NCBI GenBank assembly: GCA_027451885.1
Contig: DAIDHX010000233.1
Location: 1 to 42,467, forward strand
Reading direction: 5' to 3'
DNA length: 42,467 nt
From: Planctomycetales bacterium
GTDB lineage: Bacteria; Planctomycetota; Planctomycetia; Isosphaerales; Isosphaeraceae
This document shows, one piece after another, positions 1 to 34,828 of this stretch. Each line of letters begins with the position of its first letter. Position 1 is the stretch's first letter. The notes below the pieces were generated by a model, which worked only from the letters and a program-made list of their open reading frames with translations, was not told where the DNA came from and ran no database searches. The position numbers and the translations under genes are program-made.

Positions 1-1409
1 GCGGATCCGGAGTCGGCGGCCCAGCCCTCCGCGGTGCGGAGCTCGACCTTGACCCGATCCTCGACGAGATCACGAGGCACAAGCGCGGGCCAGTATGTAA
101 AGGCCGGCAGCGGTCCTGGGCGTCCTGAGGCATAGCCCGCGATCCCCGGCGGTCCCGCCGTGACGAGGGGGGCGAATTCGCGGCAAAAGCGGTCGATCGC
201 CTCGCGCCTGGGATCGCGTGCGGTAACGCGGAGCACAACCTCGAACGGCGGGCAGGCGGGCTTGACCACACCGGGCGCGACGTCCCCCGCGCCCAGGCAC
301 TCGACGAGCGACTCCGCCAGCTCGAAGCCAGCACGCTTGACGCGCGCGAGAATGATCCTGCCGGCTGCCCGTGCCTTGGCCTCGGCGTCGCGGCCGACGA
401 CGGCGAGCATCCCGCTCGCGGTCCAGCCATCGCGAGCGACCGCGGCGAGCTTGAGCGCGTCCGGCCTCGGCAGCCCGCGCGCACCCGTGATCCGCACCCG
501 ATCAGGGCCGATTTCCTCAACTTGAAGCCCCGTGAAATCGAGGTTTACATCGGGCGTGCGATAACAGGCGGGGTCGTCGACCTCGTAGAGCATCTGCTCG
601 ATGATCGAGGCCTGCGAGACGCGGCCGCCTGTCCCCGCGGACTTGGTAATCACGCACGCGCCCGATTCCTCGACTTCCGCGATGGGATAACCGACGTTCG
701 CAAGGTCAGGCAGATCAGCCCAGTCGTGCAGCAGGCCCCCCGTCGCCTGGGCGCCGCATTCGATCAAATGGCCGGCGACCGTTGCGCCAGCGAGCCGATC
801 CCAGTCCTCGAAGCTCCAGCCGAACCGCGCGGCGGCCGGCCCGACCGTAAGCGCTGCATCCGCCACGCGGCCCGTGATCACAATCCTCGCCCCTCGCTCG
901 GCTGCGCGGACAATCGGTTGTGCTCCCAGATAGGCGTTCGCGGAGATCATCCGGTCGACCATGAACTGCCCGAGCGCTTCGCCTGTCTCCACGTTCTTGA
1001 GATCAACTCCGCTGGCTTGCCAATCCGGAAGCAGCGGCAACACATCGTCGCCAGTGACCACGGCGACGGGGATCGAGCCGAGCCCGCGCGCTGCCAGAAT
1101 CTCGCCAACCTTGCGCGCGCAGGCCTCGGGATTGAGCCCGCCGGCGTTGGTGACGATGCTGAGCTCGGGTCTTGCCGCGAGCGTTTCCGCAAGGGTATTC
1201 GCGAGCGTGGGGAAATCGCTGATGTAGCCCGCGTGTGGATTCTTGAGCCGAAGATGCGCAAGAATCCCCAGCGTGAGCTCGGCAAGGTATTCGAGGGTCA
1301 GCACCTCGACGGACGGGTCGCGCGCGAGCAGGGCGGGTGCATCGAGATTATCGCCCCAGAACCCTGCGCCGTTGGAGATCCGGATTGGAGCGACGGCCGC
1401 GAGCGCCAT
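1..1409 (-). CDS. AtuA-like protein (DUF1446), 3' end outside window
   Basis: This minus-strand gene starts at the ATG whose first base is 1409, after a good ribosome site (GAGGGAG), and stays open to base 1, so its C-terminus lies beyond the window. The N-terminus reads RISNGAGFWGDN and further on it has GDDVLPLL, GRVADAALTVGP, ATGGLLHDW and FTYWPALVPRDLV, a pattern I recognise from the DUF1446 family. That family is named after AtuA of the acyclic terpene utilisation cluster; its biochemical role is not settled. It begins 26 bp after the stop of the carboxyltransferase gene, so the two are probably co-transcribed. In known Atu/Liu-type clusters such a protein accompanies a biotin-dependent acyl-CoA carboxylase, so a role in branched-chain or isoprenoid acyl-CoA breakdown is inferred. 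Family call fairly sure; exact substrate unknown. Confidence 0.8.
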   Translation of the reverse strand, partial: MALAAVAPIRISNGAGFWGDNLDAPALLARDPSVEVLTLEYLAELTLGILAHLRLKNPHAGYISDFPTLANTLAETLAARPELSIVTNAGGLNPEACARKVGEILAARGLGSIPVAVVTGDDVLPLLPDWQASGVDLKNVETGEALGQFMVDRMISANAYLGAQPIVRAAERGARIVITGRVADAALTVGPAAARFGWSFEDWDRLAGATVAGHLIECGAQATGGLLHDWADLPDLANVGYPIAEVEESGACVITKSAGTGGRVSQASIIEQMLYEVDDPACYRTPDVNLDFTGLQVEEIGPDRVRITGARGLPRPDALKLAAVARDGWTASGMLAVVGRDAEAKARAAGRIILARVKRAGFELAESLVECLGAGDVAPGVVKPACPPFEVVLRVTARDPRREAIDRFCREFAPLVTAGPPGIAGYASGRPGPLPAFTYWPALVPRDLVEDRVKVELRTAEGWAADSGS

Positions 1410-1435: not shown

Positions 1436-3085
1436 TTATACCTGGAAGACGCCGGTAGTGATTGGGCTGGTCGCCCGGTTGCTCGTGGCAAAATCAAATA
1501 ACCCGGCCAGCACGTCGCGCGTCCTGCGTGGGTCGATGATGGCGTCGACCCAGAGCCGAGCGGCGGCGTGGCGGATGTCGGTCTCCTCGTCATAGCGTTT
1601 GGTGAGCGCGGCGGCCATGGCCGCGAGCTCGGCCTCGTCGATCGGGCGTCCCTGGCGCTTGAGAGCGGCGATGTTGACGTCGAGCATGGTCCTGGCGGCC
1701 TGGCGTGCGCCCATCACAGCGTACCGAGCGGTCGGCCACGCGACCAGGAAGCGGGGATCGAACGCCCGGCCGCAAAGCGCGTAATGCCCCGCGCCGAAGG
1801 AGTTCCCCGTGATGAGCGTGATCCTGGGCGTGGTGCAATTACTGACTGCGCTGACGAGCTTGGCCCCCTTGCGAATAATGCCTGAGCGTTCAGCGTCGCG
1901 GCCGACATCGAATCCCACCACGTCCTGAATGAACAGGATCGGCAGCCGGCTCTGGTTGCACTCGAGCACGAAGCGCGCGGCCTTGTCCGCCGAATCGCCA
2001 TAGACCACGCCGCCGAACTGCATGGGCCCGTTCCCCTCGGCGCGGAACCGCAACCGCTGTGAGGCCACGACCCCAATGCCAAGCCCCTTGAGCCTGCCGA
2101 AGCCGCAGACGAGCGTTCTGCCGAACTCGGCCTTGTACTCGTCGAGCCTGCCGCCGTCGAGGATCGCGGCGAGCAGGTCATGCACGTCGAACTGGGCGCT
2201 GGGATCCGCGAAGGCTGGGTTGAGAAGCGATTCGGGGCCGCGTGCGGCGGGCTCGGGCGCGGCATCGTGTTCGCGAGCGAGATCGGCCGGCAAGAGCGCA
2301 AGCAGCCTGCGCAGGCGAGCCAGGCAGGAGGCGTCGTCAGGCTCCCGGTAATCGATTGTGCCGCTCAGGGCCGCGTGCACCCGGGCGCCGCCCAGCTCGT
2401 CGTGCGAGATTTCCTGCCCGATGGCCGCCTTCACGAGCGCGGGCCCGGCGAGATACAGGCCCGATCCCTCAGTCATGAGCACCGTGTCGCAAAGCACGGG
2501 TAAATACGCCCCGCCGGCCACGCAGTTGCCCATGATCGCCGCGTATTGCGGCACGCCCTGGGCTGATAGAACGGCGTTATTGCGGAAGATCCGGCCGAAG
2601 TCATCCGCATCGGGAAACACCTCGTCCTGAAGCGGCAGGAAGACGCCGGACGAGTCGACCAGGTAAACGATCGGCAACCGGTTCTCGGCGGCGATCGCCT
2701 GCGCGCGGAGGATCTTCTTGATGGTGAGCGGAAAGCACGCGCCGGCCTTCACCGTGGCGTCATTGGCAACCACGATCACCCTGCGCCCGGCAACGCGCCC
2801 GAGCGTCACAATCACCCCCGCCGCGGGAGCGCCGCCCCACTCGTCGTAGACCCCTCGGCCCGCCCACAGACCGAGCTCAAACCGGAACCCACCCGGATCG
2901 AGCAGCGCATCGATCCGCTCGCGCGCGGTCATTCTGTGCTTCGCGTGCTGCCGCGCAACCGCGTCCGCACCACCCCCCTGCTCGATCACATGCTCTTCGC
3001 GCAGGATCTCGGCCAGAACCGCGCGCGGGCCGCTGGCGGAATTCGAATCCACGTGCGCGGCGGAATTGACTGGGCTCGCGACCAT
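1436..3085 (-). CDS. Acyl-CoA carboxylase, carboxyltransferase (beta) subunit
   Basis: The 549-residue protein has the crotonase-fold carboxyltransferase layout of methylcrotonyl-, geranyl- and propionyl-CoA carboxylase beta subunits. It shows HRMTARERIDALLD near residue 55, the N-terminal half with VVANDATVKAG and YLVDSSG, MGNCVAGGAYLP around 180, and a C-terminal half with IQDVVGFDVG and ITGNSFGAGHYALCG. The length matches the MccB/AtuC/LiuB group (about 535 residues). These subunits move the carboxyl group from carboxybiotin to an acyl-CoA in the cytoplasm and need a biotin-carrying alpha subunit. None is visible here, so it may lie beyond the left edge or elsewhere. The gene sits 68 bp behind the VOC-like gene and 26 bp ahead of the AtuA-like gene. 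The ATG start has GAGG upstream. The context favours leucine or isoprenoid acyl-CoA degradation, but the acyl specificity cannot be read from the sequence. Confidence 0.85.
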   Translation of the reverse strand: MVASPVNSAAHVDSNSASGPRAVLAEILREEHVIEQGGGADAVARQHAKHRMTARERIDALLDPGGFRFELGLWAGRGVYDEWGGAPAAGVIVTLGRVAGRRVIVVANDATVKAGACFPLTIKKILRAQAIAAENRLPIVYLVDSSGVFLPLQDEVFPDADDFGRIFRNNAVLSAQGVPQYAAIMGNCVAGGAYLPVLCDTVLMTEGSGLYLAGPALVKAAIGQEISHDELGGARVHAALSGTIDYREPDDASCLARLRRLLALLPADLAREHDAAPEPAARGPESLLNPAFADPSAQFDVHDLLAAILDGGRLDEYKAEFGRTLVCGFGRLKGLGIGVVASQRLRFRAEGNGPMQFGGVVYGDSADKAARFVLECNQSRLPILFIQDVVGFDVGRDAERSGIIRKGAKLVSAVSNCTTPRITLITGNSFGAGHYALCGRAFDPRFLVAWPTARYAVMGARQAARTMLDVNIAALKRQGRPIDEAELAAMAAALTKRYDEETDIRHAAARLWVDAIIDPRRTRDVLAGLFDFATSNRATSPITTGVFQV

Positions 3086-3153: not shown

Positions 3154-4590
3154 CTAGTACCGCCGGGGATCGGTGGCGGCGATGATGGCACTCACGGCCT
3201 GCTGGTTAAAGCCCTTGTAGCCCTCGGTTCGTTCCAGGTTCTCGAGATGGCTGCCGATCGTTCCTTCCTCGCGAAAGCGCGCATGCTGCTCGGCGGTGAT
3301 CCAGCCCCGCTCCAGTGCGCGATCGAGCCTCCTGGGAGGGATCGCCCAGCGCTCGCCGGCGGTGAACGCCTGCCGCAGGAACGGAAAGTTTGAAAACGGG
3401 GGCATGGTGTCGATGTTCGCCTCCGCCTTGAGCCCGTCGCGCAGGCGATCGAAATCGAACTGAGCCTCGAGATGGTGCATGCCCGCCTCGAGAATCGATT
3501 CGCCATGGAGTGCGACCCAGAGCCCCACCGTGCCGGGGCGCTCGAGCTCTGGCAGCGCAAGGTGCGTGAAGTCGCAATCGGCTTCCTCGGGGGCGAGGTC
3601 GAGATCGGCGAAGATGACGATGCCCGTGACCGGCTGCTCGACAATCTGCGCGCCCCAGCCCGCCTGTGCCCCGGCGTGGAACCGCTCACGAAGCTCGAAT
3701 CCCAGCCTCTGGAACATCGCAATGATCCGCGGGAAGAATCTGCGCGAACAGCGGAAGGTGTGATGATCGTGATTGGCCCAGCCCAGGCCGAGCCGATCCT
3801 GCCGCGCCTTCTGCACGCGAGCCGCGCGATTGCGCGACTGCCAGTATTCGCGCTCGACCTCGAAGATCAGGTGGCATGCCAGGTCGGCCGAACCTGCGCG
3901 TTCGATCACGTGATTCAGCAGGCGCTCGGTGCAGGCGATGCCTTCCTCGTCGTCGTCGAATCGGCGTCTGCGCGCTTCCCAGAGCTCGCGGGCGGCGAGC
4001 GCATCGCGCGCGGCGGAGGGGGTCATCCGGCCTTCGCGGACGAGGTCGCTCGGAAACGGATCAAAGCCGCGATAGGCCCTGCGCTCCACGACCGCAAGCG
4101 TTGTCGACACCCCGGCAATCCGTGCCACGCGGTAAGGGCCAAGCGGCACACCCTCGATCTCGAGCCCCAGGTCGTGCGCCCGCGAGAAGGCCGCCACCGA
4201 CTCGCACTTGAGCGCCAGCTCAAGCACCGCGTGGGCGTCGTCGCGCCCGTTCGCGCCCGCCTGCGCGTCGGCCGGCACAATCACCACCCGCGGGAACATC
4301 CCTCCCTTGTGGCCGAAGACCGGGTTCGAGACATCGTGCGATTCAGACTCGCGCTCGTAGCCAAGCGCGCTGAGCTTGCGCCCAAGCGCGGGCCCGCCCC
4401 GGACCACGATGTGATCGACCCACACCTTGAAGCGCGTGCCAGTCTCGCCGCGCAGGCGCTCGGCCAGCGTGGCCGCGAAGGCGTTGCCCTCGAGCCCGCG
4501 GGCGATCAGCCCATCAACATATGCTTCTGTTTCTGGCCAGCGCCGCCATTCAAACGTGCTCGGGGACGCTGGGACCGTGACCTGGGACAT
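3154..4590 (-). CDS. Unassigned protein with VOC/glyoxalase-like halves
   Basis: I do not recognise a named family. The chosen ATG (first base 4590) has GGAGGA 8-9 bases upstream, which beats an ATG 60 bases earlier; the gene then overlaps the aminotransferase end by 41 bp. The 478-residue product has two segments resembling vicinal-oxygen-chelate units. The first contains VDHIVVRG followed by a helix and LGYERES. The second contains NHDHHTFRCSRRFF, an LGFELRERF strand, then GWGAQIVEQ and VIFADLDL. The His-rich openings could bind a metal as in dioxygenases of this fold. The C-terminal part contains GYKGFNQQAVSAII. The characterised 2-oxoadipate dioxygenase/decarboxylase HglS (DUF1338) also has a VOC fold and acts after an aminotransferase in lysine breakdown, but its NHLTPR motif is not found here, so equating the two would be speculation. 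No signal peptide; probably cytoplasmic. Confidence 0.6.
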   Translation of the reverse strand: MSQVTVPASPSTFEWRRWPETEAYVDGLIARGLEGNAFAATLAERLRGETGTRFKVWVDHIVVRGGPALGRKLSALGYERESESHDVSNPVFGHKGGMFPRVVIVPADAQAGANGRDDAHAVLELALKCESVAAFSRAHDLGLEIEGVPLGPYRVARIAGVSTTLAVVERRAYRGFDPFPSDLVREGRMTPSAARDALAARELWEARRRRFDDDEEGIACTERLLNHVIERAGSADLACHLIFEVEREYWQSRNRAARVQKARQDRLGLGWANHDHHTFRCSRRFFPRIIAMFQRLGFELRERFHAGAQAGWGAQIVEQPVTGIVIFADLDLAPEEADCDFTHLALPELERPGTVGLWVALHGESILEAGMHHLEAQFDFDRLRDGLKAEANIDTMPPFSNFPFLRQAFTAGERWAIPPRRLDRALERGWITAEQHARFREEGTIGSHLENLERTEGYKGFNQQAVSAIIAATDPRRY

Positions 4591-5878
4591 GCTGGGAATC
4601 CTCCTCGGCGGATGCGAACACCGCTCCCATGAGATCGAGCCCGATTTCAACCTGCCGGGGCGTCAAGCACAAGGGAGGGCAAAAGCGGATCGTGCTCGGT
4701 CCGCACGGTAACAAAAGCAGCCCGCGTTCAAATGCAAGGTCGATGAGCCGGTCGCGTAAGAGCGGGTTCGGGCGCCCGTCGGGATCCTGGATCTCTGCGC
4801 CGATCATGAGCCCGAGTCCGCGCACCTCGCGGATCGCGCGGTAGCGCTCCGCCAGGCGATCGAGCCCTGCGCGAAGCTGCGCGCCACGCTCGGCCGCGTT
4901 TGCGCGGTATCGTTTCTCGATGAGCGCCACCGTGGCGTTGGCCGCTGCGCACGCGACCGGGTTGCCGCCGAAGGTCGACGCGTGGCTGCCGCTCGGCCAG
5001 TCCATCACCGAACTCCGCGCCACGATCGCACCCAGCGGCAGCCCGTTGGCGATCCCCTTGGCCATGCAAATGATATCGGGCGCAACCTGCCAGTGCTCGC
5101 AGGCGAAGAACTTGCCCGTGCGCCCCATGCCCGCCTGGACCTCGTCGAACACCAGCAGCACGCCGTGCTCGTCGCAGATTCGCCTTAGCCCGGGCAAAAA
5201 CTCCGGCGGGGGCACGATGTAACCCCCCTCCCCCTGGATCGGCTCCACGAAGATCGCGGCCAGCTCATCCGGCGGGCAGATGGTGGAAAGCAGCGTGCGC
5301 ACGCTCTCCAGGTCGCCATAACGCGCATGATGAATCTCCGGCACCAGGGGCGAAAAACCCCTGCGCTGCATCGGCTTTGAGCCCGACAGCGACATCGCGC
5401 CATAGGTCCGGCCGTGGAACGCCCCCATGAACGCCGTCACCCGCTTGCGGCCCGTGTGCCGCCGCGCGAGCTTGAGCGCGGCCTCGATGGCCTCGGCACC
5501 GCTATTGGTGAAGAAAACACGCTTGGGCTCCGGCCCCGGCGCCAGCCTGGCCAGCTTCTCCGCCAGCTTGACCTGCGGCGTGTAGTAAAAGTCGGTGCCG
5601 GACATGTGCACCAGCCGGCCCGCTTGCCTGCGGATCGCCGCCACCACCCGGGGATGCGAATGCCCCACGTTCGTCACCGCGATACCCGCCGTGAAGTCAA
5701 GAAACAGGTTGCCGTCCATGTCCTCGACCATCGCGCCCTTCGCCCGCCGCACCACGAGCGGATAAACGCGGGTGTACGACGGCGACATCACCGCCTCGTC
5801 ACGCTCCAACCAGTGCGCGCTTTTGGGCCCAGGCAACGGACCGAGAATCCGCGGCTCCAGACGTGCCAGGTTGGCCAT
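4550..5878 (-). CDS. Class III PLP aminotransferase (GabT / acetylornithine type)
   Basis: The 442-residue enzyme has the complete class III aminotransferase pattern: LDFTAGIAVTNVGHSHP near 60-76, NSGAEAIEAALKLAR at 125-139, GAFHGRTYGAMSLS near 152, VEPIQGEGGY at 211-220, FDEVQAGMGRTG with Asp245 contacting the PLP ring nitrogen, and CMAKGIANGLPLGA with Lys274 as the Schiff-base lysine. The family moves amino groups from omega-amino acids such as 4-aminobutyrate, ornithine or lysine to 2-oxoglutarate. Some archaeal members racemise leucine or methionine instead, and the YYTPQVKLAEKLA region looks similar to those. It is the first gene of the minus-strand operon, with an AGGGG ribosome site, and its 3' end overlaps the next gene. 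Its company (acyl-CoA carboxylase, AtuA-like) suggests a lysine or branched-chain amino acid pathway. The exact substrate is undecided. Confidence 0.9.
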   Translation of the reverse strand: MANLARLEPRILGPLPGPKSAHWLERDEAVMSPSYTRVYPLVVRRAKGAMVEDMDGNLFLDFTAGIAVTNVGHSHPRVVAAIRRQAGRLVHMSGTDFYYTPQVKLAEKLARLAPGPEPKRVFFTNSGAEAIEAALKLARRHTGRKRVTAFMGAFHGRTYGAMSLSGSKPMQRRGFSPLVPEIHHARYGDLESVRTLLSTICPPDELAAIFVEPIQGEGGYIVPPPEFLPGLRRICDEHGVLLVFDEVQAGMGRTGKFFACEHWQVAPDIICMAKGIANGLPLGAIVARSSVMDWPSGSHASTFGGNPVACAAANATVALIEKRYRANAAERGAQLRAGLDRLAERYRAIREVRGLGLMIGAEIQDPDGRPNPLLRDRLIDLAFERGLLLLPCGPSTIRFCPPLCLTPRQVEIGLDLMGAVFASAEEDSQHVPGHGPSVPEHV

Positions 5879-6410
5879 CCCCGCACCCCTTTCGAGATCC
5901 TTCGAGGGTTCAAACCCGCTCCAGGCAAGGCCGCGCCGCGGACCACAAGACCGCCGCGGGACCAGAATCGCTGCACCACCTGCAAGAAATGTAACTGAAT
6001 TATCAGGGGCTGGGCGATTTTCGTCAAACCGAGCCTCCCCCGTCGAACCCGCTCAACCCACCCTCCGCACCCAGCGCAACATAACGCCTTCTCATGATCT
6101 TACGACGTGCCTGATCTTCCGGTTTGCTCGTAATCGGACAAATCTGTCGCAGCCCAACCCGCGACCCATCCCACGCGCCAAACCCTCACCACGCCGATGC
6201 ACGTCCGCCTCTTGATCCGTCCACCTCTTGATCATTCCCAGCGCGAATCTGGGTAACGGTGCTCGAAGCCTGAAGACGCATTCCCGCGGCACAAACCGCC
6301 CAGTTGCCAGGGTGCGCTTTCCAGGCACGACCCGCCCAGCCGGAAACCAGTCTCATGATCAATCGACTGCCGCATTCGACTCTCACCGTCACCACCCGCG
6401 CGAGGTGGCC

Positions 6411-6598
6411 TGGGTTCGCTCTGGCGACGCCGTTGGGTTCGGTTCGCAGACCGCTCCTGGGTTCGCTTTGGCACCACCGTTGGGTTCGGTTCGCAGACCG
6501 CTCCTGGGTTCGCTCTTGCGACGCCGTTGGGTTCGGTTCGCAGGCCGCTCCTGGGTTCGCTCTGGCGACGCCGTTGGGTTCGGTTCGCAGGCCGCGAT
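6411..6598. repeat. Four tandem copies of a 47-bp repeat
   Basis: Units run 6411-6457, 6458-6504, 6505-6551 and 6552-6598. Each opens with TGGGTTCGCT, continues with a GGCGACGCCGT-like core and TGGGTTCGGTTCGCA, and ends in CCGCTCC; the last unit diverges at its end. Copies differ at only a few positions (the second has GGCACCACC in the core). Each unit itself contains two TGGGTTCG strings. Because 47 is not a multiple of three, the array changes reading frame at each copy and is not a protein repeat. There are no spacers, so it is not a CRISPR array. Confidence 0.92.
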
Positions 6599-7169
6599 CG
6601 AGTTGCTACATCTCATTTCATGGCTTCACCTTGCGGCGGCATAAAATTCACTTCGCCGCTTCGATTACGGTCGCGTTTCTCGGGTTGATCGCTGCACTTT
6701 CTGGCGCGATTGGCTTCGCTGCGTCGACCCGGCCTGGGGTCGCTCAGTCGGCCCGTGCCACGACGCCTTCGCCCGTGCCGAGCTCGCAAGCTCGAACCGC
6801 GCGTGAGGGTGTTTTACCACCCCACATTCGCCTTGCGGGGTTTTCGACTCGGGGAAGGCCGAGGTGCGTCGCGTGAGTCGTGGAAGGTGGAAGACGGAGG
6901 GCAGAGACGCCTTGCCGGGTTCTTCTCACCCTGAATCTAACGCACCTTCGCGCGAGTGGAGTCAAGAAACTCTGGATTTCTGCTCGACCCGGTTGGACTG
7001 CGCAAGGAGTGAGGATTCTCGCGAAAATCCCGTTGATTACGCTCCAAAGTCGCGCGGTGCCCGGGCCTTTCCACCGCGGTGAGCGGCGTCCATTTTCATC
7101 GCCGCGGAGCACGGAGCGTAAGCGAGTGTACTGTAACGCTAATACGAGGTAACCCCACGGGCCAGGTGG

Positions 7170-7206
7170 GTAATACACACCTGCTTGCTCTTCACGGTGG
7201 TATTAC
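7170..7206. repeat. Imperfect inverted repeat (GTAATAC / GTATTAC)
   Basis: The left arm GTAATACACACC (7170-7181) pairs with the right arm GGTGGTATTAC (7196-7206): seven pairs, a bulge, then four pairs, around a 14-base loop. It is not followed by a T run, so a terminator is unlikely. It could be a protein-binding site or part of a decayed element. Confidence 0.5.
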
Positions 7207-7276
7207 TTATGCGTCTATTACTCGTCCCTGCATTACACCTGCTGATATTACTCGTTCTGGTATTGTGGATGCGCCC
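7202..7276. repeat. Degenerate 15-bp direct repeat, about five units
   Basis: Five consecutive 15-base units begin with ATTAC or ATTG at 7202, 7217, 7232, 7247 and 7262 (ATTACTTATGCGTCT, ATTACTCGTCCCTGC, ATTACACCTGCTGAT, ATTACTCGTTCTGGT, ATTGTGGATGCGCCC). In the plus frame they would read as a five-residue repeat beginning Ile-Thr. This is not the A(D/N)Lxx pentapeptide family. The surrounding frame is short and lacks a good start, so I treat it as a DNA repeat. Confidence 0.45.
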
Positions 7277-7639
7277 GCGGATTTGGCCTGCGCTGCGCGG
7301 CTCTGGTTTCATCCCAGCTCGTGCCGGGTTCCAGGAACCGCGCCATGCGTGATGCCCACAATCGCGCCGGCGGCCCAGTTCAGAGCAACCGCAATTTCAG
7401 CAGCCTCTTGAAGAAGTCGAGGCCGATTATCCCGCGGCGCCGTCGCCACTCCTTCAAGACTGGAATTCCGAATCGCCGCGAACCAGCCACGACAAGCGCC
7501 CGGCGACCGCGCTCGCCCCCAACATCGACAGGCTCTCCGCATCTGGCGTTTTGCGTCTCACGCGAAGGACGTAAAAGCGCACGTGCCCCCCACCACGCTG
7601 TTCCCAGGGCTCGGCCTTGACACGCGGCGGGGTTGTACT

Positions 7640-32400: not shown

Positions 32401-32827
32401 GAAATCGGTCTCCCGTGAGGCTTGAAACCAAGGATGGGCCGGGGCGGCGGTGCACCTCGGCCGGGTGTTTTGCTCGATCCTATGGACTGGCGCGTTACCC
32501 TACCACAGCCCCGCCGGCCGATTCCAGCATCACCCCGCGATCCGCTCCCCGCGCAGGCCCGGCCCGCGCGAGGTTAAAATCGGGCGCGGAATGAACCAGG
32601 AAGGTGGACCATGGGCAAGAAAGTGACGCTTATAGTAAAGTGTGAGGATGTTCGGGTTCCGGCGCGCGCGAAGTCAGGAAACGCAGCTCCGGGGCCGACG
32701 ATTGCCGCCAGAAGCCGCCGATAACACCACGGATCAGCCAGGCAGGTCGGCTCTCGACGACTCAACTCAATCGAATACAACGCTTCTACCGGGTGGGTCT
32801 CGCTCGTCCTTGAGGGATATGTCTGCC
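32401..32827. other. 427-bp region between divergent genes
   Basis: This holds the superoxide dismutase promoter side and the upstream region of the second adaptor. TATAGT at 32631-32636 in an AT-rich patch (CTTATAGTAAAGTG) is the best -10-like element, without a good -35. A 37-codon frame at 32611-32724 has an AAGGTGG ribosome-like site but low third-position GC, so I do not call it a gene. Confidence 0.4.
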
Positions 32828-34828
32828 ATGTCCATCGGCCATGAGTTGCCCAAACTGACCGCGATTCCCCAGCCCAGGCAACGGAACCGGTTGCAGGGAA
32901 TGCTCAAGATCGCGATCGCCCTCGCCGTGATCGGCGGCGCAGGCTGGGCGATCACCAGCGGCGAAGTCTCCCGGCGGATGTTCAAGCAGGAGAAGCCAAC
33001 CGAGCGCTTCGTCGAGGTCGATCGCGGCCAGATCGGGCTTACGATCGTCGAAAACGGCACCGTCGAAAGCGCGAACAACGCCGTCCTTCGCTGCCAGGTC
33101 GAGGCACTCGTGGGCCAGATGGGCGGAACCCAGGGGGGCGTGGCAACTTCCAGCGGCTCAGGCGCCCAGGCTTCCGGTTCCTCGGCAAGCACCTCAACCC
33201 AGGCAAGCTCATCGGCCTCCAAGACCTCAACCAGCAAGACCTCAACCAGCAAGACCTCGACCAGCAAGACCTCGACCAGCGGATCAACCACTAAAAGCAC
33301 CAGCTCCTCGACCACCAGCGGCTCGACCGCGTCGACGTCAAGTTCTTCGAGCTCAAGCTCCACCGCAAGCTCATCCTCCAGCTCTGGAACCTCCAGCTCT
33401 GGAACCTCCAGCTCCGCCACCTCCAGCACGGGCAACGTCAAGCCCGTGATCCGCAGTTTCTCCTACGTTGTTCCCGCCCACGTTCCCTTGCGGCCCGTCA
33501 CCCAGTCCTCGGGTGGAACCATGTCCAAGAAACAGGGCGGCCAGGGGGGCATGGGCGGCGGCGGCGGCGGTCGCGGCGGTGGTGGTCGCGGCGGACGCGG
33601 CGGCGGCAGCATGATCGACGACGAAAAACCAGGCTCCACTCGCATCGTCGAGATCCTCGCCGAAGGCACTCGCGTCAAGAAAGGCGACATCGTCTGCAAG
33701 CTCGATTCCTCCGCCTATGACGACGAAGAAAAAGCCCAGCAAATCCGCTACTACCAGGCCAAGTCCTATGTCGACCAGGCCCAGGCCATCCTCGACGTCG
33801 ATAAGATCACCCTCGAGGAATACCGCGACGGCATCTTTCCCCAGGATTTGCAGCTCATCCGCCAGTACATCACCACCTGCCAGCTCGACAAGGACCGCGC
33901 TGAGAGGACCATGCTCTGGTCCCGCGACATGCTCAAAAAGGGCTTTCGCACCCCCTACCAAACCCGCGCTGACGAACTCGCCTTTCAGCGCGCTGAGATC
34001 GCCCTCAAGGAAGCCCTCGGCATGCGCGAGCGCCTGGTCAACCAGACCGGTCCCAAGCTCACCAAATCCCTCGAGGCCAATGTCAAGGCCGCCATGGCGG
34101 ACAAGCTCACCCAGGACGCCTCCTTCAGCCTGGAATCACAGCGGCTCACCAAGATCCGCCGCAATATCGAACATTGCACCGTCCGCGCGCCCCGTGACGG
34201 CATCGTGATCTACGCCAACCAGACCAACCCCTGGGGCATGGTCACCGCTCGCATCGATCAGGGCGTCACTCTCCACCAGGATCAGCCCATCATCAACTTG
34301 CCAGACCCCCAGCAAATGCGAGTCAAGGCAAGCATCAACGAATCCAAGATCAGCATGATCCAGCCCGGCGTCCTGGCCGAAATCAGGGTCGACGCCTTCC
34401 CGGACCGACCCATGCGGGGCCGGGTTTCCGAGGTCATCCCCATCTCAACACCCCTCCGCGGCTCCGACGTACACGTCTACTACGCCTTCGTGGACATCCT
34501 CGACGAAATCGAAGAGCTCCGTCCCGGCCTCTCCACCGAAATCAGCTTCCAGATCCAGCAAAAGAAAACCGCGTCACGCGTGCCCGTCGAATCGATCCGC
34601 TGGATTGGCGAGCGCCCCTTCGTCGCGCTCCATGCTGCCGGCTCGGACGACTCCTCCTGGACCTGGAAGCCAATCCAGGTGGGAATGTCCGACGCGGTTT
34701 ACGCCGAAGTCGTCTCCGGGCTCCAGGTCGGCGATCGCGTTGTGGCCGATCCCAGCAAGCTCCCCGCACCCGACGCCTCAACACCCAGCCAGGCCGCGGA
34801 GCAAGTCGCCTCCTCGGCCCGCGAATAA
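32828..34828 (+). CDS. HlyD-family efflux adaptor with a Ser/Thr/Gly insert in the lipoyl domain
   Basis: An open frame starts at 32642, but codon use is poor until the ATGs at 32819 and 32828; GAGGG at 32812 fits 32828 best (666 residues). After a membrane anchor (MLKIAIALAVIGGAGWAI) comes a first lipoyl strand (VDRGQIGLTIVENGTVESANNAVLRCQVEA, to about residue 93). Where the other adaptor (25496) has only a few residues, this one has about 175: a Ser/Thr run with KTSTS repeats, a short hydrophobic piece (VKPVIRSFSYVVPAHVPLRP) and a Gly run. The domain then resumes with TRIVEILAEGTRVKKGDIVCKLD at about 270. The coiled coil, second half (CTVRAPRDGIVIYANQ) and barrel domains follow. No pump genes adjoin it, so its partners are elsewhere. 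Confidence 0.8.
   Translation: MSIGHELPKLTAIPQPRQRNRLQGMLKIAIALAVIGGAGWAITSGEVSRRMFKQEKPTERFVEVDRGQIGLTIVENGTVESANNAVLRCQVEALVGQMGGTQGGVATSSGSGAQASGSSASTSTQASSSASKTSTSKTSTSKTSTSKTSTSGSTTKSTSSSTTSGSTASTSSSSSSSSTASSSSSSGTSSSGTSSSATSSTGNVKPVIRSFSYVVPAHVPLRPVTQSSGGTMSKKQGGQGGMGGGGGGRGGGGRGGRGGGSMIDDEKPGSTRIVEILAEGTRVKKGDIVCKLDSSAYDDEEKAQQIRYYQAKSYVDQAQAILDVDKITLEEYRDGIFPQDLQLIRQYITTCQLDKDRAERTMLWSRDMLKKGFRTPYQTRADELAFQRAEIALKEALGMRERLVNQTGPKLTKSLEANVKAAMADKLTQDASFSLESQRLTKIRRNIEHCTVRAPRDGIVIYANQTNPWGMVTARIDQGVTLHQDQPIINLPDPQQMRVKASINESKISMIQPGVLAEIRVDAFPDRPMRGRVSEVIPISTPLRGSDVHVYYAFVDILDEIEELRPGLSTEISFQIQQKKTASRVPVESIRWIGERPFVALHAAGSDDSSWTWKPIQVGMSDAVYAEVVSGLQVGDRVVADPSKLPAPDASTPSQAAEQVASSARE
33221..33280 (+). 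repeat. Four tandem 15-bp units coding KTSTS
   Basis: AAGACCTCAACCAGC occurs twice at 33221-33250, then twice with one change (AAGACCTCGACCAGC) at 33251-33280. It lies inside the Ser/Thr part of the adaptor insert. The period is a multiple of three, so copy changes keep the frame. Confidence 0.92.

Follow-up and report, generated by a model that had tools for sequence, protein, structure and literature searches.

A two-barrel VOC protein of Planctomycetes and Verrucomicrobia as a candidate divergent 2-oxoadipate dioxygenase of lysine catabolism

A gene for a protein of 478 amino acids lies between genes for an aminotransferase and an acyl-CoA carboxyltransferase in a Planctomycetales bacterium (Table 1). 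The stretch of DNA analysed, hereafter the window, comprises 42,467 nucleotides. Which reaction might this protein catalyse, and in which pathway? The initial annotation described an ORF with two VOC-like units, marked by VDHIVVRG (residues 58-65) and NHDHHTFRC, and a 41-bp overlap between the end of the aminotransferase gene and the VOC gene, all of which are present in the sequence. It proposed a metal-dependent enzyme for a 2-oxo acid that is 'parallel to but distinct from HglS'. This interpretation is partly supported by our analysis, in that it is right in kind and is corrected here on the pathway and on the relation to HglS. On balance, we lean towards a decarboxylating 2-oxoadipate dioxygenase of divergent sequence and two-barrel build, which would carry out the HglS step of lysine catabolism.

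Table 1. Features of the VOC gene and its neighbours, with positions in the window.
Feature	Position	Strand	Description
Two-barrel VOC gene	3154..4590	-	478 aa, start MSQVTV; predicted divergent HglS-like 2-oxoadipate dioxygenase; from ORF, conservation and structure
N-terminal VOC barrel	3895..4536	-	Residues 19-232; degenerate metal site; from secondary structure and residue counts in 89 aligned sequences
C-terminal VOC barrel, predicted catalytic	3157..3894	-	Residues 233-478; best match FLO7/HglS
NHDHHTFRC motif	3748..3774	-	Residues 273-281
H276, predicted metal ligand	codon 3763-3765	-	Invariant, 89/89
R280, predicted substrate arginine	codon 3751-3753	-	Invariant, 89/89; His+4
H373, predicted second metal ligand	3472..3474	-	Invariant; first strand of second VOC unit; putative ligand role
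E450, predicted third metal ligand (SHLENLER)	3241..3243	-	Invariant; last barrel strand; putative ligand role
Class-III aminotransferase	4550..5878	-	Upstream; PF00202, 415 bits; conserved partner
Acyl-CoA carboxyltransferase	1436..3085	-	Downstream; PF01039, 429 bits; beside the VOC gene in some genomes
AtuA (acyclic terpene utilisation family)	3-1409	-	PF07287, 470 bits; cut by contig end

The ORF is not a chance reading frame, because its product has matches in 52 of 99 related genomes, relatives are encoded at 417 loci in GTDB genomes, and an alignment of 72 diverse homologues (47-80% identity) contains approximately 65 invariant columns. These loci are found mainly in Planctomycetota and Verrucomicrobiota, and the best 80 of the 417 belong almost entirely to these two phyla, with single Ignavibacteriota and Chlamydiota MAGs. 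The Isosphaeraceae members compared here include Singulisphaera acidiphila, whose strain DSM 18658 has a homologue at L078:8001-9398, and Paludisphaera. Two MAG records (L095, L099) are titled 'Candidatus Kuenenia stuttgartiensis' while their genomes (G024, G033) are placed in Isosphaeraceae, and these titles look misassigned. A tblastn search of plasmids with the VOC protein gave no match.

Sequence searches of Pfam, NCBIfam and the PDB, made with the single protein and with a 72-row profile, yielded no usable family. Specifically, no HPPD, hydroxymandelate synthase (HMS) or Glyoxalase sequence family in Pfam or NCBIfam matches the protein, and the sole PF00903 match among the 72 homologues has an E value of 0.16. 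None of these homologues matched PF07063 (DUF1338), the family of HglS, FLO7 and YdcJ. On sequence grounds, we would therefore not file the protein under PF07063, because the sequence model of that family does not recognize it.

Structurally, the AlphaFold model (pLDDT 92.4, pTM 0.90) forms two consecutive VOC barrels, in agreement with the fold that had been anticipated. The order of secondary-structure elements and the matches to VOC structures both indicate the paired beta-alpha-beta-beta-beta units and half-open barrel of this superfamily. A Foldseek search with the whole model places HMS and HPPD at the top. By VIA-align, the whole model matches rice FLO7 with bound 2-oxoadipate first (Z 15.0), followed by the DUF1338 structures 3iuz and 3lho. 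The C-terminal half retains a confident prediction when folded alone (pLDDT 87.7), and its alignment to the same FLO7 complex (6w1k) spans 215 residues with a Z of 16.4, a deviation of 3.7 A and 17% identity. The Z scores that follow are 14.9 for 3lho, 14.1 for 3iuz, 12.8 for HMS, 12.3 for P. putida HglS, 12.2 for HPPD and approximately 12 for YdcJ. The level of identity is low, and FLO7 and P. putida HglS themselves share a mere ~15% (PMC7286885). A comparison by hhalign with small DUF1338 alignments is weak, with E values of 0.0015 for the N-terminal half and about 0.02 for the C-terminal half.

Judged from the model, the C-terminal half appears most like the DUF1338 barrel, since 6w1k, 3lho and 3iuz all rank above HMS and HPPD, and the tandem layout appears most like that of HPPD. 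Indeed, the protein shares with HPPD and HMS two tandem VOC barrels with a predicted metal site in the C-terminal one only, although its C-terminal half matches them with a lower Z than it does FLO7. Methylmalonyl-CoA epimerase and glyoxalase I are also built from beta-alpha-beta-beta-beta units and match this half, but only with a Z of about 8-9, and they consist of a single small VOC domain with no helical preface. By itself, the predicted fold would leave room for other VOC chemistries.

The candidate active site adds to the resemblance to HglS. The P. putida enzyme coordinates its iron through His70, His226 and Glu294; its Arg74 holds the substrate 2-oxoadipate by the distal carboxylate, and the R74A variant is inactive (PMC7286885). 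H276, R280, H373 and E450 of the two-barrel protein are each invariant in all 89 aligned sequences, as is H372. R280 follows H276 by four residues, which is the spacing of Arg74 from His70, and HDHHTFRC aligns by eye, and weakly by hhalign, with NDHIAFRT of short DUF1338 proteins. By this motif, H276, H373 and E450 would be the counterparts of the HglS iron triad, with H373 and E450 suggested as ligands by their position and conservation. The initial suggestion of a metal-dependent enzyme for a 2-oxo acid thus gains support as a prediction from both the fold matches and the invariant residues. Its separation from HglS does not hold up as worded, because the predicted catalytic barrel is structurally nearest to HglS and FLO7 and carries a motif like that of their metal histidine and substrate arginine. 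In the N-terminal barrel, D59 and E169 are kept almost throughout the 89 sequences. This barrel is probably non-catalytic, because some members lack H60 and residue 128, at the position of the second ligand, is variously K, R, H or M.

In other words, the protein resembles HglS, FLO7 and YdcJ in its predicted C-terminal barrel fold, in a predicted metal histidine with Arg at +4 and in a lysine-catabolic context. It differs from them in approximately 17% identity, in the additional degenerate N-terminal VOC barrel, in many added invariant residues (HGE, AGMHHLE, KGFNQ) and in its occurrence in anaerobic anammox bacteria.

The lysine-catabolic context is found in at least three gene layouts. L-lysine 6-transaminase (LAT), L-piperidine-6-carboxylate dehydrogenase (P6CDH) and the VOC gene follow one another in the Verrucomicrobia Pedosphaera, Verrucomicrobium and Chthoniobacterales; the VOC gene, saccharopine dehydrogenase (SDH) and P6CDH share a strand in Opitutae; and divergent SDH and P6CDH genes lie beside the VOC gene in Planctomycetaceae. 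LAT is assigned by TIGR03251 (575.8 bits against a cut-off of 520.8) and P6CDH by NF050084 (805 bits against 730). P6CDH, SDH and LAT are the recurrent neighbours outside Isosphaeraceae, and both of the deep halves into which midpoint rooting divides the tree contain such neighbourhoods. Together, these genes span the route from lysine to 2-aminoadipate, and the next intermediate, 2-oxoadipate, is the substrate of HglS. Among the three pathways that had been considered at the outset, lysine is therefore borne out by LAT, SDH and P6CDH as neighbours, while leucine and isoprenoid catabolism are not.

Isosphaeraceae, the family of the window's genome, present a different arrangement. LAT is found in 0/45 of their genomes, SDH in 2/45 and P6CDH in 29/45. 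A class-III aminotransferase of the NF004426/PRK05769 family is located directly upstream of the VOC gene on the same strand in 25 of the 33 genomes examined, which supports the proposed coupling of the two genes. In the window this aminotransferase scores 575.6 bits against a cut-off of 552. The gene overlap is 38 bp in a genome of the same genus (G001, locus L032; aminotransferase match 6163-7488, VOC gene start 7451), and gaps take its place in remoter relatives. P6CDH is present in 21 of the 25 genomes with the adjacent aminotransferase and in 0 of the 8 without it (Fisher p 4e-5, with no correction for phylogeny); these eight carry the VOC gene with neither P6CDH nor the adjacent aminotransferase. 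This co-occurrence suggests that the aminotransferase fills the lysine 6-transaminase role, and in the window it is probably a lysine omega- or 2-aminoadipate aminotransferase. The window's own genome encodes P6CDH on contig C52 (761 bits), and P6CDH is present in 33 of 45 further carriers of the VOC family. In the Planctomycetota sample as a whole, carriers of the VOC family show no enrichment of P6CDH (10/28 versus 93/195), and so the argument is carried by physical adjacency and by the correlation within Isosphaeraceae. The window also contains a 47-bp tandem repeat in four copies (6409-6595, 92% match), located between the aminotransferase gene and the plus-strand gene that comes next.

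The second neighbour had been viewed as an equally fixed partner, and in this respect the conservation of the neighbourhood extends to the aminotransferase and not to the carboxylase. The carboxyltransferase adjoins the VOC gene in only ~10 genomes, all from Isosphaeraceae. It was rejected as an obligate partner since it is missing beside the VOC gene in most relatives. The carboxyltransferase and AtuA genes lie outside the conserved unit, and they appear to form a separate module that adjoins the VOC gene in a subset of Isosphaeraceae. Elsewhere in the window, two short 15-bp tandem arrays (33220-33280 and 33375-33427) are located inside an ORF (32642-34828) that matches an HlyD-type membrane-fusion domain (PF16576).

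The distribution of the known HglS family is consistent with a shared role. PF07063 was not found in the window's own genome, nor in any of the 45 further carriers of the VOC family. Among 195 Planctomycetota genomes there are 28 VOC carriers and 22 PF07063 carriers, and no genome carries both, where 3.2 would be expected (hypergeometric p 0.03, with no phylogenetic correction). In family f12, one genome (G260, locus L165) carries the VOC family while six sister genomes carry PF07063, which is an apparent replacement of the long HglS of the sisters (L171, L172, L184).

For the reaction itself, we infer the identity of the metal, the substrate, the use of O2 and the product, together with the exact step of the adjacent aminotransferase. 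The C-terminal barrel would hold Fe(II) through H276, H373 and E450, with 2-oxoadipate as a chelating ligand (2-oxo and carboxylate oxygens) whose distal carboxylate would be held by R280. O2 would then drive decarboxylation and hydroxylation to give 2-hydroxyglutarate and CO2, and the N-terminal barrel, having lost its metal site, would be structural. In the window's organism, lysine might be converted by the aminotransferase or an equivalent enzyme to piperideine-6-carboxylate, which P6CDH would oxidize to 2-aminoadipate, followed by 2-oxoadipate and 2-hydroxyglutarate. Through this last product, lysine carbon would presumably flow back into the TCA cycle.

The main reason that our confidence in 2-oxoadipate dioxygenation is only slightly better than even is the presence of an intact family in anaerobic anammox bacteria. 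Hydrazine synthase, found in 11 of the 14 genomes of f40 and f61 Planctomycetota with the VOC gene, marks these families as anammox organisms. Their VOC copies (L152-L166) form one clade in the tree and keep every motif residue, and P6CDH is absent from these genomes. An O2-dependent step of lysine catabolism is unexpected in organisms that are anaerobic and without P6CDH. Either the enzyme works there under microoxic conditions, or this clade has changed its substrate or chemistry, or the reaction of the whole family is not an oxygenation. In five f40 loci, the gene immediately upstream encodes a class-I aminotransferase (PRK06836) that is unrelated to the class-III enzyme. A GlcD-like FAD oxidase beside one anammox VOC gene (L163) was considered as a 2-hydroxyglutarate dehydrogenase and set aside, as it occurs at a single locus and scores well under the model cut-off. 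A limited search of the literature found no work on lysine or 2-oxoadipate metabolism in planctomycetes or anammox bacteria.

These genomes lend some weight to an unlikely but serious alternative, in which the same metal site grips a 2-oxo-dicarboxylate for a reaction that needs no O2 (an isomerization, epimerization, aldol reaction or hydrolysis), or in which the substrate is a different 2-oxo acid. Such an enzyme could serve aerobes as well as anammox bacteria. The motifs are intact where P6CDH is missing, the PRK06836 aminotransferase again implies a 2-oxo acid, the invariant residues far outnumber the few that are essential in HglS, and VOC epimerases match the fold as well. However, the nearest folds are all HglS or DUF1338 proteins, followed by the oxygenases HMS and HPPD, and both the His+4 arginine and the complementarity with PF07063 favour dioxygenation of 2-oxoadipate. 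A more specific proposal, which we regard as rather improbable, is that this previously undescribed family, extending from lysine degraders to anammox bacteria, is an O2-independent counterpart of HglS acting on 2-oxoadipate or a close 2-oxo-dicarboxylate.

The remaining readings keep either the oxygenase chemistry or the lysine context. An HPPD- or HMS-type dioxygenase for an aryl-2-oxo acid or alpha-ketoisocaproate, feeding the carboxyltransferase and AtuA in leucine or isoprenoid catabolism, is close to the idea first put forward for this locus. It would account for the tandem barrels with a predicted active C-terminal one, for the high rank of HPPD in Foldseek with the full model, and for the two genes that adjoin the VOC gene in the window. 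We consider it very unlikely, given the few genomes with this adjacency, the lysine genes that make up the wider neighbourhood, the VIA-align ranking of DUF1338 over HPPD, and an invariant His+4 arginine fit to bind a distal carboxylate, as Arg74 of HglS does. We know of no HPPD with Arg at this position, and no tyrosine-catabolic neighbours of the VOC genes were seen. VOC folds serve as binding proteins too, and the adjacent genes make and oxidize piperideine-6-carboxylate, so that the protein could have another role in lysine metabolism (e.g. on piperideine-6-carboxylate or 2-aminoadipate semialdehyde) or be regulatory or non-catalytic. This also seems improbable, as those steps already have enzymes in the same operons, and the combination of His/His/Glu with Arg, all invariant, speaks for an enzyme that turns over a chelating 2-oxo acid.

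Assignment of the family to 2-oxoadipate dioxygenation, which we favour, would fit a gap in the Planctomycetes and Verrucomicrobia that carry it, where the front half of lysine catabolism is present and the known HglS family is absent. The intact anammox copies pose the question of what role an apparently O2-using active site has in an anaerobe. If the assignment is correct, hundreds of 'hypothetical proteins' would gain a function, with named residues predicted to be catalytic.
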